From assembly GCA_027596075.1 (NCBI GenBank), contig JADGJC010000067.1, forward strand, positions 1 through 64,000: a stretch of DNA of 64,000 nt, written 5' to 3'. How positions within the stretch are numbered: the stretch's first letter is position 1; the number at the start of each line of letters is the position of its first letter. This DNA is from Rhizophlyctis rosea. Lineage: Eukaryota > Chytridiomycota > Chytridiomycetes > Rhizophlyctidales > Rhizophlyctidaceae. The notes beneath the pieces were generated by a model that was not told the DNA's origin, searched no databases, and worked only from the letters and a program-made list of their open reading frames with translations. The position numbers were made by a program, and so were the translations under genes. Shown one piece after another: positions 5,203-63,770 of the stretch.

Positions 5203-14948
<9,746 letters not shown>

Positions 14949-57389: not shown

Positions 57390-60300
57390 ATGCTCGCGTC
57401 ACACGTCGACCAAAACCTTGGGAATGCTTCGGATGCTTCGCTCCCACCCCACCCGCCACTCCCTCGACCTACTCCCCGCAAAGCGCCGCCTGCAGTCCCC
57501 GTCAAACCTCCGACCCTAGCAGCACGAAAGATCAGACAACGCGCCCGGCTCTCCACAGCAACGTTTTCATCCTACACCCCTACGGACGTCAGAGCTTCGT
57601 CTTACGATTACTTCCAAGGATGGTCTGGCCGCCAATCTTCGGCTGGAGAGAGATCGGGGAATGAGGGTGAGGATGATGAACAGCGGGGTCGACAAGGGGC
57701 GGTTGCTGCGGATGGCCAGAGCACGGAATCCGCAAGCGTTACACGCGCACTAGGAGAGTATGCTGTTGATGCTCCTTTACCCAAGCCGACACCGGCGCGG
57801 CTAGCCGATATCCGACGAGGTATGCTGGTGTGTTATGACTCTATCCGAAGAACTTGGCTGATCAAATCTTAGAATCGATGACAAGCTCGCCTAGCCCCTA
57901 CATCCAAAGCACACCTCCCAAATTCCCGACGCCAACCCCACCTCCACTTCCCTATATACCGGCACCCTCTCCAGCTTTGTCCGATCAGACTATACATCCT
58001 GCCGCTGCCGGCACCCCAACTTCCGAACTTCGACCTGAAGCAACGACTCCGACCCGTACTCGCATCAGATCTTCATCACGAGGATCATGGCGGTTCCGCA
58101 ACTCGGTCCACACCGGAAACGACGTGCGGGACATGACAGGAGAGGAAGCCATCTTATCCAATGTCTTCACTGGAGCTTTAGGCTTCGAGGTCGCCGAACC
58201 ACTCCTTGATAATGAGGAAACGGAGGTCGTGCCCGTGTACGCGGGTGTCGCCTTGTTCGACTTTGACGCAGATCCTGAATTGCCGCAAACGGTTTCGCTT
58301 CGGAGTGGGGAGAAGTTGATAGTTTACGGAGCTAGGAATATTCGCAACACAGTGTTGGGAAACCGTGAATCTGCAGTTGAGGAATTGGATTTTATCAAGG
58401 AAGTGGAAGTGTCGAATGGATGGGCACAGGTCGAGCTAGGAGATGGTCGGATAGGGTTTGCTCCTGTTGAGTACATTCAGGTATTGCTTCAAAAGGTGAT
58501 GAGGCGTGCCGCCTGTTTGTTAACAACAACCTTACAGCTCTCCACGGAGGGAACCACGCCATCAACGCCAGCTGAAGGAGTTACACTTGAATTTGCGCTC
58601 ACCGATCACTATTCACCTGGTCGTAACCACTCTCCGTCCTCCAACGAGTCCCCGAACAGTACCATCCGCGATGCTCATCACACATACGAGTCGATCGGCG
58701 TGCCACCCGATGTTGATAAATTCGTCTTTGGCGTAGGGTCGTTGCGGGAACCGAGCATCACCTCGCCTACCAGTTCGCAGGAAAGTTTGGCGTATCCTTC
58801 AGCCATGAGCTCTTTGTCGACCAAGTCGGCTATGTTGACATCGAAGGTTGCGACGGGGTTCAGACGAGCTTGGTCGTCTTGGTTTTCGGGCAATAGTGTC
58901 AATGATTTCATTACGAAGGGGGTGGGCGTGGATGTTAAGGGGCCTAATTTGTTTGATTCGGATGAGGAAGAGACTGGCAGTGTTCGACGACTTTCGAATG
59001 CTAGGGTGGGAGATATGAAGTGGCATGAGAAGCATTATTTGAAGGTTGGTCTTTACGACGGTCTTTTGATGGGTTTGTTTGTAAACACCGCATCGCAGCC
59101 AGGACCGGTTTGGCAGGCGCAGACGCCACCATACTCCGTGACGATACGGACCCCTGAACGACGTCGTCGCGTCTCTGTCGAATCATCTCAATCAACGGCA
59201 CAGAATACCATTCTGGAAGAATTTGTTGTGTATAAAATCGTCACATGGGTAAGGGAAGATCTGGGTGGCTCTTTCGCCGTAGCAGGGAATTTCAATTCGT
59301 TCCATCAGTTCCCAGAAGATCTCTCGGCTTCATCAGCCACCTATACCACGGAACATACCACATATACCTCAGTGACAGTCGACCGACGATACAGGGACTT
59401 CGAATGGCTCCACGAACGACTCCTCCTCCGCTTCCCCCACCCCGTCATCGTCCTCCCCACCCTCCCCAAAAAGCACATGGCAAAACGGTTCGACCCATCA
59501 CACGTCGAAACCAGGCGAAGAGCGCTAGAAAGATATCTTAACTGCCTGGCTCGTCACCCGCTGTTGAGGAACGAGGAAGCTGTTATGTTGTTTTTAAGTT
59601 CGGGAGGGTTGACGACGGGGGGTGTTTTGGCGAAGCAGATGAAGATTGCTAAAGCTGTTGAGGGAGAATGTTCTGCTTTGCTTGATGATGCTACGGTTGT
59701 GGTGGAGGATGAGGAGTGGGCGAGGGCTATGAGTCAGTATGATGGGGATCATGCGGGGGAGCAGAGTCGGCCGGGGCCTGCGAGGTTTTTTGCGAGGGTG
59801 CAGAGTGGGGAGATTGGAGGGTTTGATTCGAGGTGGGTGTTGTCTTTGGATGGAGCTAAACGCTTGATGCTTGATTCTGACTTCGCGTGTGTCTCCAGCA
59901 AGGTGGAGTTGATGGAACGGTTTTCAGACCATATCGACATGATGGAGACGCGGTTGGAGGCGCTTTTGGAGGCGTCGTCGAAGCATCAGGCGCTAACATC
60001 GGGTAAGCTATTTTGCTCTTATGCAGATGGGGTGTGAGATGTGTAGTTTGATCATGTAAACCCAGATCTTGCCGTGCAATTTGAGGGCATGGCGCGAGCA
60101 TTGGAAGCCTTGGCGCGAGGCAGGGGAGAGGATAACAGGCGCGAGAGGGAGATCTGTTGGTGCTGGCGCCAAGGATGTATGGAATGTCATGAATTTTCTG
60201 CTTCGATGTTAGGCATTTCGAAGCAGATGCATGGGATTTCGGAGACGTTTGAGAGTCATGTGAGTTTTTCATATCTTTTGAGCTATCCTCGCGATATTAA

Positions 60301-61722: not shown

Positions 61723-63275
61723 ATGGCAACGTTCAATCCACATGCCGGTCGTCTCCTTCCGCCTATAGGCTTGAGGGAAGTTCAACCCGGAACGGCCGCC
61801 GCACTTGGTGGATGGGAACCCGGAACTGTCGCCTTCCCAGACCTTGAGGACTTTGTCAGCCTGCTCAACTCTGCAACGCAGCCCCAACAGTCAGCCTTCA
61901 GCGCCGAAGCAAATGGAGTGTCCCTCGACCCCTTGGAGACCTTGCTCTTGTCGGCGGAGAACAGCCCGGCACCGGTTCTAGCCCAGCCGCCTTTGGACAT
62001 GGATTTCATCTTTGGTGATGTTGACCCGTTGTTTGGGTCATCGCCTTCGACTTTGTCTAGTGGGCAGCCGGCTTCACCACCGTATATGCAACCCCTCGAA
62101 AGGGATGCGGCTAGCGCGTCTCCTCCTGCTTCTGTCGCACCAGCACCTCATGGATCCCCCGCATCCGTTACATCTCACAATTCTTCTGAAGAAACAAATA
62201 CACAAGTAGCTTCTGCGCCTGCGGAAACTGGACGGAAACGGAAATTGACGCCCGAGGAGAAGGAAGAGAAGGATAAGAGAAGGTGTGTATTGATTGGCAA
62301 ATTCCATATCATATCATTCCTTGCGTACTAAATACACGTCAATCCCTCAGGGCAATCCGGAATCGTGCAGCCGCTCAGGAATCTCGAGACAAAAAGAAGA
62401 AGTACATGGAAGACCTAGAAAAGACCAATGCTTCGTTGCAACAACAAAATCAGCAACTGTCCTCCCGCCTCGAGAGCGTAGAAACCACCAATCAAACCCT
62501 CATGTCCCGCCTTGAAGACCTCGCCTCCCAACTCACCACCCTTCGATCTCAATTCCACAACGCAACCTCCCCAACATCCCTCCCCACACCAAACGCCACA
62601 TCCATCACCATCCCGCACCACCCATCGTCCGTCTCCGACGCGCTTGGCCTCTCCGACCCAGCAGCGGTCGCATCCCAGCAGCGGATATCGTCAAGCGCGA
62701 GGAACCGGACGAACCTTGCAACTATCTTCAGCAACCATACGATCACACAGCAGCAACAGCCACCCCTGTACAGTCACCGTTCCTACTCGACGAACGCGCC
62801 GTCCTCGATGGTTTCGACGACGACGCCTTTGTCGGTTACCAACCGGTCTTTACAACAGGTGGCCCCAGCTGCTTCGAACTCGATGCTGAACAACAACAGT
62901 ATGCAACAGGACCCATCAGCGACTACTCCACTGGTCTCGACCCAGGCTCACCCGCTGGCCTTCATCGTCGCGACGGCGATCTTGCACTCGATGGTCTCTA
63001 TGATCTCGAGGGCCAAGACGACGCCTACCGCGGCGGTGACCACTTCTGGTCGGCGGCAGACCTTGGGTTCAGACTTGTGGACGCCTGCTGAGGGGGGGTT
63101 GGGTGCTACAACGGCAACAGCCACCCCAGTTAAGAGAAAGGGGTTGGGACTTTTGCCGGATTTGAATGGATATGTGGCGCTTTCGACTAGCTCGAAGTTG
63201 TCGAATTTCCCTATTTTGAGGAGTATTTGGGAGAATAAGTTGGGGAGTGGGAAGACGGTTAGTTCTGCTGCTTAG
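61723..63275 (+). CDS. HAC1: HAC1/XBP1-type bZIP transcription factor with two alternative C termini
   Basis: Likely master regulator of the unfolded protein response. Exon 1 (61723-62282) encodes an acidic, Pro/Ser-rich N terminus and the start of the basic region, RKRKLTPEEKEEKDKRR. After a spliceosomal intron (GTGTGT ... CCTCAG) exon 2 continues AIRNRAAAQESRDKKKK, with the bZIP signature N-x2-AA-x2-S-R, then a zipper of seven heptads with Leu/Val at the d positions (LEKTNAS LQQQNQQ LSSRLES ...). The RKxLTPEEK...NRxAAQxxRDxKK pattern is close to XBP1. As read directly, the frame runs to TAG at 63275 (494 residues). If the 17-nt segment 62662-62678 is removed, it switches at residue 291 to another frame ending at TGA 63091 (427 residues) with an acidic tail starting ADIVKREEPDE. 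The gene symbol reflects functional analogy. Confidence 0.9.
62654..62686 (+). promoter_or_regulatory. Twin stem-loops of an IRE1-type cleavage site pair
   Basis: Hairpin 1: stem CGACC (62654-62658) with GGTCG (62666-62670), five perfect pairs, loop CAGCAGC (62659-62665). Hairpin 2: stem ATCC (62672-62675) with GGAT (62683-62686), four perfect pairs, loop CAGCAGC (62676-62682). Both loops are 7 nt and fit the IRE1 rule CNG|CAGN. Cuts after the third loop base would fall after 62661 and after 62678. The hairpins sit side by side, one base apart, downstream of the bZIP-coding region, as in XBP1 mRNA. Confidence 0.85.
62662..62678 (+). other. Candidate 17-nt non-spliceosomal intron
   Basis: The segment CAGCGGTCGCATCCCAG lies between the two predicted IRE1 cuts. 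It has no GT or AG splice logic and is too short for the spliceosome. Its length is 2 modulo 3, so removal shifts to the frame that starts ADIVKREEPDE and stays open for 136 codons. The known metazoan XBP1 intron is 26 nt, also 2 modulo 3, and filamentous fungal hac1 introns are near 20 nt. Confidence 0.82.
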
Positions 63276-63651: not shown

Positions 63652-63770
63652 ATCTACGGCCATACACACCAGAAAGCACCGGATCCCGTCTGATCTCCGA
63701 AGTTAAGCTTGTGATGGCGCAGTCAGTAATGTGGTGGGGGACCACACGGGAATACTGCGTGCTGTAGTTC
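63652..63770 (+). rRNA. 5S ribosomal RNA
   Basis: A 119-nt 5S rRNA. Helix I pairs CTACGGC near the 5' end with GCTGTAG at the 3' end. Conserved blocks are GGATCCCGTCTGATCTCCGA, AAGTTAAGC, AGTCAGTAATGTGGTGG, GGGACCAC and GGGAATACTGCGTGCTGTAG. The internal Pol III control region (box A, intermediate element, box C) lies in the AAGTTAAGC to GGGACC part. It stands alone, not within an rDNA unit, as in fungi with dispersed 5S genes. Confidence 0.95.

Follow-up and report, generated by a model that had tools for sequence, protein, structure and literature searches.

Does the bZIP gene of Rhizophlyctis rosea, a soil chytrid fungus of the order Rhizophlyctidales, carry a switch of the unfolded-protein response (UPR) of the HAC1/XBP1 kind, in which IRE1 would remove an intron of 17 nt? 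The original prediction was made from a window of 64 kb on contig C587, the whole stretch of DNA that was analysed (the genome comprises 44.1 Mb in 634 contigs). It proposed that two hairpins downstream of the bZIP domain are cut by IRE1 and that the excision gives access to a hidden reading frame. In what follows, we call U the frame which is read without this excision (unspliced) and S the hidden frame which is read after it (spliced). The coordinates are collected in Table 1.

Table 1. Features of the bZIP gene of R. rosea (positions in the 64-kb window)
Feature	Position	Strand	Basis or remark
bZIP gene	61723-63275	+	ATG start at 61723, U-frame stop 63273-63275
Coding exon 1 (N-terminus common to both forms, first part of the bZIP basic region)	61723..62282	+	translation; match to HDV00_010879
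Spliceosomal intron, 68 nt, GTGTGT...CTAAA...CAG, within the basic region	62283..62350	+	junction KRR-AIRNR
Exon 2, U (unspliced) frame	62351..63275	+	494-aa protein; stop 63273-63275
bZIP domain, PF00170 over residues 179-240, spanning the spliceosomal intron	62257..62510	+	Pfam
Closing stem, 5' arm, 10 bp, CGCGCTTGGC	62639..62648	+	
Hairpin 1, CGACC-CAGCAGC-GGTCG, 5 pairs, loop CAG|CAGC (predicted 5' IRE1 site)	62654..62670	+	
Predicted 17-nt IRE1 intron CAGCGGTCGCATCCCAG	62662..62678	+	cut after loop base 3 in both hairpins
Hairpin 2, ATCC-CAGCAGC-GGAT, 4 pairs, loop CAG|CAGC (predicted 3' IRE1 site)	62672..62686	+	
Hidden S frame, acidic, aromatic, activation-domain-like tail	62679..63091	+	stop TGA 63089-63091
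S-frame motif DIVKREEPDE ([IV]K.E)	62684..62713	+	in 3 of 3 aligned chytrid sequences
Closing stem, 3' arm, GTCAAGCGCG	62690..62699	+	
U-frame hydrophobic stretch PLAFIVATAILHSMVSMIS, residues 388-406	62952..63008	+	Kyte-Doolittle
U-only C-terminal tail with KRKGLGLLPDLNGY...FPILR	63092..63272	+	common to P0002 and P0003

In the U frame, exons 1 and 2 encode exactly the protein deposited for R. rosea as HDV00_010879 (P0001). The junction of the spliceosomal intron, KRR|AIRNR, is consistent with the models of P0001 and of P0002 (from R. rosea HK097, with 55% identity in 408 aligned columns); the model P0003, from Borealophlyctis nickersoniae, a member of the same order and of another family, reads through it as KERIIRNR. 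The Pfam families bZIP_1, bZIP_2 and bZIP_Maf are all found above their cut-offs in P0001, PF00170 with 43.9 bits and PF07716 with 43.1 bits. The basic region reads NRAAAQESRDKKKK, which we take to resemble the basic region of XBP1. In a comparison with solved structures, the named bZIP chains matched were those of CREB, MafG, ATF2 and TGA7, and none was named XBP1. The gene is the strongest of its type in the whole genome, with 127 bits against 30.5 at the next locus.

As to the neighbourhood of the gene, a complete 5S rRNA gene (RF00001, 99 bits, 63652-63770 on the plus strand) starts 377 bases past the bZIP stop, and nothing else in the window matches Rfam at gathering score. Upstream lies an open reading frame of 727 aa with a PX domain (57854-60037, plus strand, 81.1 bits), and an open reading frame on the minus strand (9391-10938) with UME and ATR M-HEAT domains is part of an ATR-type kinase gene.

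The two adjacent hairpins with identical CAGCAGC loops had been described correctly to the base, and cutting between loop bases 3 and 4 does take out the 17 nt announced. The loop rule of IRE1, as given in PMC4891664, calls for two hairpins with 7-nt loops and a G at position 3 before the cut; the R. rosea hairpins agree with it in loop length and in the G. One base separates them, and both are enclosed by a closing stem of 10 bp whose mid-stem pair probability is 1.0. We searched for pairs of hairpins with CNGCNGN loops and stems of 4 or more Watson-Crick pairs that stand within 60 nt of each other: the window contains a single such pair when both strands are counted, and none occurred in two sets of 100 simulated 64-kb sequences (first-order Markov). 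When exon 2 was reshuffled synonymously with the unspliced protein kept, the twin hairpin appeared in 20 of 20,000 sequences, and together with a closing stem of at least 8 pairs in 2 of 20,000. Across the 44.1 Mb of the genome, CCAGCAGCGG N(0-30) CCAGCAGCGG as an exact pattern is found at one place.

Folding of the transcript had been proposed as a check. It yielded the expected closing stem, but the unconstrained optimum of the hairpin region (-29.2 kcal/mol) does not show these two hairpins as such. When both are forced, the best fold has -29.1 kcal/mol, 0.1 above the optimum, with an extra pair inside each loop, and the plain twin-hairpin structure alone has -24.6 kcal/mol. Four sampled hairpin pairs have probabilities of 0.38-0.63. 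The twin-hairpin form is accessible, not dominant. The fold of 73 nt has a z-score of -2.28 (4 of 200 shuffles were as good), and that of 201 nt, in which further helices lengthen the closing stem, a z-score of -3.08, with none of 200 shuffles as stable.

RF04247, the Rfam family of Hac1/Xbp1 introns, can be aligned from end to end, closing stem included, with 62642-62696; the match has 30.3 bits and an E-value of 0.0028 in a search of 1.6 kb. This score is below the gathering score of 41, and the match is missing from the gathering search of the whole 64-kb window. Genome-wide, no match to the family was obtained at E<=10, in a search where 73 of 2117 candidates were scored and our locus possibly fell outside those 73. 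Since half of the bacterial and archaeal genomes used as controls (7 of 14) also give sub-threshold matches in this search, RF04247 does not discriminate by itself. We did not retain a plain membership in this family, against which the empty genome-wide search at E<=10 speaks.

Once the 17 nt are removed, the joined frame reads ...DPAADIVKREEPDE... and the protein has 427 aa with a tail of 138 residues. Translation bears out the claim that the frame stays open over 136 full codons (62681-63088) ahead of its TGA, and the announced acidic and aromatic character is also there: the tail has 27 D/E against 7 K/R, and 15 aromatic residues. Such a composition suggests that the S tail may act as an activation domain. 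Its [IV]K.E motif is one which we take to be SUMO-consensus-like.

It could be objected that the U frame alone is used, the S frame being open since the region is GC-rich. The deposited protein HDV00_010879 is indeed the U form, the third frame also has an open run of 135 codons, and codon usage in the overlap leans slightly to U (0.005 per codon, against -0.081 for S and -0.434 for the third frame). Codon usage sets U and S apart from the third frame no more than weakly and cannot decide between the frames; we gave it no weight, because U is equalled by an antisense frame (0.013) and the part of exon 2 which is certainly coding scores worse than both U and S (-0.272). Against the objection stand the U-synonymous reshuffles, of which 14 in 2000 left the S frame open, and the fact that the S protein aligns with P0002 from PAADI.K.E.PDE to GLHRRDGD. 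The exclusive use of the U frame seems to us hardly credible.

What the relatives say came from protein searches, which returned 5 sequences for the S form, 3 for the U tail and 11 in an alignment search; the S-form and alignment searches scored the approximately 8000 candidates sharing most words. The original prediction had made its case depend on the conservation of the hidden frame, and at the protein level this frame is kept in both of the chytrid models that reach the region. In the hidden frame hairpin 2 reads I-P-A-A-D, likewise in P0002 and P0003, and together with what follows it gives the motif IPAAD[IV][IV]K.E..DE, present in both models; their hidden-frame sequences are IPAADIIKLEDPDE in P0002 and IPAADVVKREDTDE in P0003. 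A further sequence, P0006, is a fragment which ends at the position of the spliceosomal intron and is uninformative on the tail. A joint back-translation of the S frame of P0002 and the U frame of P0003 gave a run of 9 (7 in the other phase), too short to count.

Neither model stays in the hidden frame. P0002 follows it to GLHRRDGDPALDGLDDLED and then has the U tail; P0003 leaves it earlier, at AHPLAFIVASAILHSMISMFSK; both put the change of frame at points other than the 17-nt junction of R. rosea. One may then suppose that this is an ordinary bZIP gene, in which spliceosomal introns connect the alternative frames, and that the twin hairpin is a coincidence, since the models of P0002 and P0003 do enter the hidden frame and go back to U, presumably via predicted introns. 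GT-AG combinations allowing such passages exist in R. rosea: 23 for the change from U to S, 1 of them with either a consensus donor or a branch site, and 64 for the reverse change, 12 of them with one or the other. These are weak candidates: among pairs 35-250 nt apart, none of the 23 and none of the 64 has both, whereas the true intron 1 has both. Moreover, the two models return to U at different places, as if the predictor were bridging a frame change that it does not see, and the hairpins, the closing stem and the IRE1 gene fit a switch with no further assumption. We consider the spliceosomal explanation very improbable. A translational frameshift in place of splicing was set aside as well, because it would leave the twin hairpins unexplained.

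IRE1 introns lie outside what gene finders are designed to recognise. For this reason we read the frame switches of P0002 and P0003 as probable artefacts, which would reveal two real frames. P0002 has TGRI before PAAD, and the same phase in R. rosea gives PSSGRIPAAD, which begins inside loop 1; the exon of the P0002 model would therefore start inside loop 1, and its intron would also measure 17 nt.

The reading of the hidden frame as part of a UPR switch is supported, but the original prediction had overlooked that the U frame is also open, as far as 63275, and conserved among the chytrid models. The U tail, with 202 residues, has 5 D/E and 16 K/R. The stretch PLAFIVATAILHSMVSMIS, 19 residues with a Kyte-Doolittle mean of 1.77, is the most hydrophobic of the protein, and its DNA reads SPAGLHRRDGDLALDGLYDLEG in the S frame, where the best 19-residue window has a mean of 0.69; a segment of such hydrophobicity is confined to U. 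In 5000 reshuffles which keep the S protein, the hydrophobic patch reached its real value in 39, a stretch as hydrophobic appeared anywhere in 167, the U frame was open in 603, and both of these last properties were found in 27. R. rosea and P0003 have HPLAFIVA[TS]AILHSM[VI]SM[IF]S in common in the U frame, and the U-only tail follows the consensus [KP]RKGLGLLPDLN.Y...FP[IM]LR in 3 of 3 chytrid models. The conserved segments LGLLPDLN and FPILRSI lie 46 to 73 residues behind the hydrophobic stretch in R. rosea; in P0003 they start 36 and 57 residues from it. In human XBP1u, HR2 is about 52 residues from the pause site according to PMC6624018, and PMC4138184 suggests that HR2 and pause regions are common across metazoans. 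A comparison of the U tail with solved structures gave 4 matches at E<=10, none of them an XBP1u chain; three were fibre proteins (the best with an E-value of 0.0019) and one was FAP246, and we took these matches to reflect composition, not kinship.

By analogy with animal XBP1u, the hydrophobic stretch may carry the mRNA under translation, or else the U protein, to the part of the ER membrane close to IRE1, and we regard the chances of this as about evenly balanced. It could also be that the U protein is a stable factor, membrane-anchored or inhibitory, and not a device for targeting its mRNA; bZIP60u, or XBP1u when it marks XBP1s for degradation, would be precedents. The stretch and the long common tail suit such a factor, and a stable protein would be equally conserved; on the other hand, the stretch is only moderately hydrophobic, and the spacing of the two conserved segments behind it is suggestive, though not more than that, of a targeting device. 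We rate the stable factor slightly below an even chance. The conserved hydrophobic U frame makes the gene more XBP1-like than HAC1-like.

A similar overlap of frames emerges, less directly, from bZIP proteins of Mortierellaceae: P0004 and P0007 (Entomortierella chlamydospora), P0009 and P0010 (Linnemannia) and P0011 (Actinomortierella wolfii). With P0012 these make six aligned proteins, the family placement having been checked for 3 of 4 species. P0004 and P0007 can be back-translated jointly into one DNA over 45 residues, with U in phase S+1 (next best 7). For the acidic PATADAELFDSFLDLDWSAIEQSAG, a run of 24 compatible residues is obtained with the hydrophobic LPQLMLNFSTLFLISTGAQSSNPQ of P0009 (Linnemannia hyalina), the next best being 11 with P0007. 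The S frame of P0004 gives compatible runs of 24 residues with each of P0010 and P0012 and of 15 with P0011 (next best 10). The six proteins have GVGFCQSAVLAKK and TNS.QQKLAP in common, with P, L or R at the variable residue. From these protein letters we infer loops of the types CTG|CAGT and CNG|CAGC, the second loop base varying as in the codons of P, L and R. The introns would measure 59 nt in 4 of the 6, 47 nt in P0011 and 53 nt in P0012; they are 2 modulo 3 by construction.

The machinery which the switch would need is encoded in the genome. The absence of IRE1, against which the original prediction was to be judged, is excluded: exons of its RNase (KEN, PF06479) and kinase (PF00069) were found together, exon by exon, on contig C38, where the stretch RALRNK|KHHY spans an intron. 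Two open reading frames upstream at this locus, for which no Pfam family was matched, show by eye a signal-peptide-like start and a transmembrane-like stretch. A ligase of Trl1 type has its T4-type ligase (PF09511) and CPD (PF08302) domains on one contig (C152), and RtcB is found on C279. The main match of the ligase spans 3 in-frame stops and one match of RtcB spans 1, which is what read-through introns would give. Either enzyme could join the exons.

We can now propose how the gene may work. In unstressed cells, the mRNA processed by the spliceosome would be read in the U frame and yield a bZIP protein with a basic tail holding the hydrophobic patch; as animal XBP1u does, this patch may direct either the mRNA during its translation or the U protein itself to the vicinity of IRE1 at the ER membrane. 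Under ER stress, IRE1 would cut both CAG|CAGC loops, set side by side by the 10-bp stem, and a ligase, of Trl1 type or RtcB, would join the ends with the loss of the 17 nt. As the sequence has it, this join shifts translation to the S frame, so that the acidic and aromatic tail, putatively an activation domain, would replace the U tail. The closing stem, the RF04247 match (in 1.6 kb and below the gathering cut-off), the presence of IRE1 and the hidden frame in the relatives all support the UPR switch. That IRE1 excises 17 nt and that ligation moves translation to the acidic S frame seems to us very probable from the sequence, and the locus is most likely a true switch spliced by IRE1, with an unspliced protein resembling XBP1u.

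More tentatively, early-diverging fungi may have kept an animal-style XBP1, with a mini-intron and with one DNA encoding both an acidic activation domain and a membrane-seeking segment followed by a pause or retention tail; we find this possible and are rather inclined to doubt it. If it were true, bringing the mRNA to IRE1 during translation would be older than the split between animals and fungi, and the yeast-type HAC1 would be derived. The switch itself would take the lower bound of IRE1 splicing down to 17 nt, with two minimal hairpins and one spacer base. Chytrids gain an XBP1-like gene with both frames conserved, and it becomes a testable question whether mRNA targeting in the style of XBP1u is ancestral to animals and fungi or an invention of animals. 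The deposited models in Rhizophlyctis, in Borealophlyctis and in some Mortierellaceae would appear to be incomplete or to bridge frames artificially.

Among the papers listed on short HAC1/XBP1 introns, on HAC1/XBP1 of chytrids, on HAC1 of Mortierella, on fungal XBP1u and on the UPR of Rhizophlyctis, we found no report of this case, which is not a proof of absence. According to PMC7580959, the homologues of this mRNA in all species have two overlapping frames, and the same paper makes the case that unspliced hacA has a function in Aspergillus fumigatus; dual frames are therefore not new as such. As far as our searches show, two things are new: the length of 17 nt, and a U frame that is hydrophobic and conserved in chytrids and, by a less direct route, in Mortierellaceae.

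How does the gene compare with the known systems? In common with metazoan XBP1, whose IRE1 intron has 26 bases in human (PMC8558229), it has twin IRE1 loops of 7 nt downstream of a bZIP, an intron length of 2 modulo 3, and overlapping frames with a hydrophobic patch and a C-terminal tail in U and a putative activation domain in S. It differs in its 17-nt intron and in the fact that both a Trl1-type ligase and RtcB are encoded. With fungal HAC1/hacA it shares IRE1-type hairpins downstream of a bZIP and a new C-terminus once spliced, and it departs from them by a shorter intron and by its conserved U-frame hydrophobic stretch and tail; to our knowledge yeast HAC1 has no such conserved stretch and tail. 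In PMC6222058, HAC1 introns have 19 nt in Candida albicans, 252 nt in Saccharomyces cerevisiae and up to 848 nt, and 17 nt falls under the minimum of that range. Plant bZIP60, from which a 23-bp fragment is removed (PMC4891664), likewise has a short IRE1 intron and, in its unspliced form, a transmembrane segment, whereas the chytrid stretch is moderately hydrophobic and is followed by a long common tail. Lastly, the Mortierellaceae proteins are of the same bZIP type, and their acidic S-type frame shares its DNA, in the same phase, with a hydrophobic frame of U type; unlike that of R. rosea, their introns would have 47-59 nt, and their U tail is a different one.
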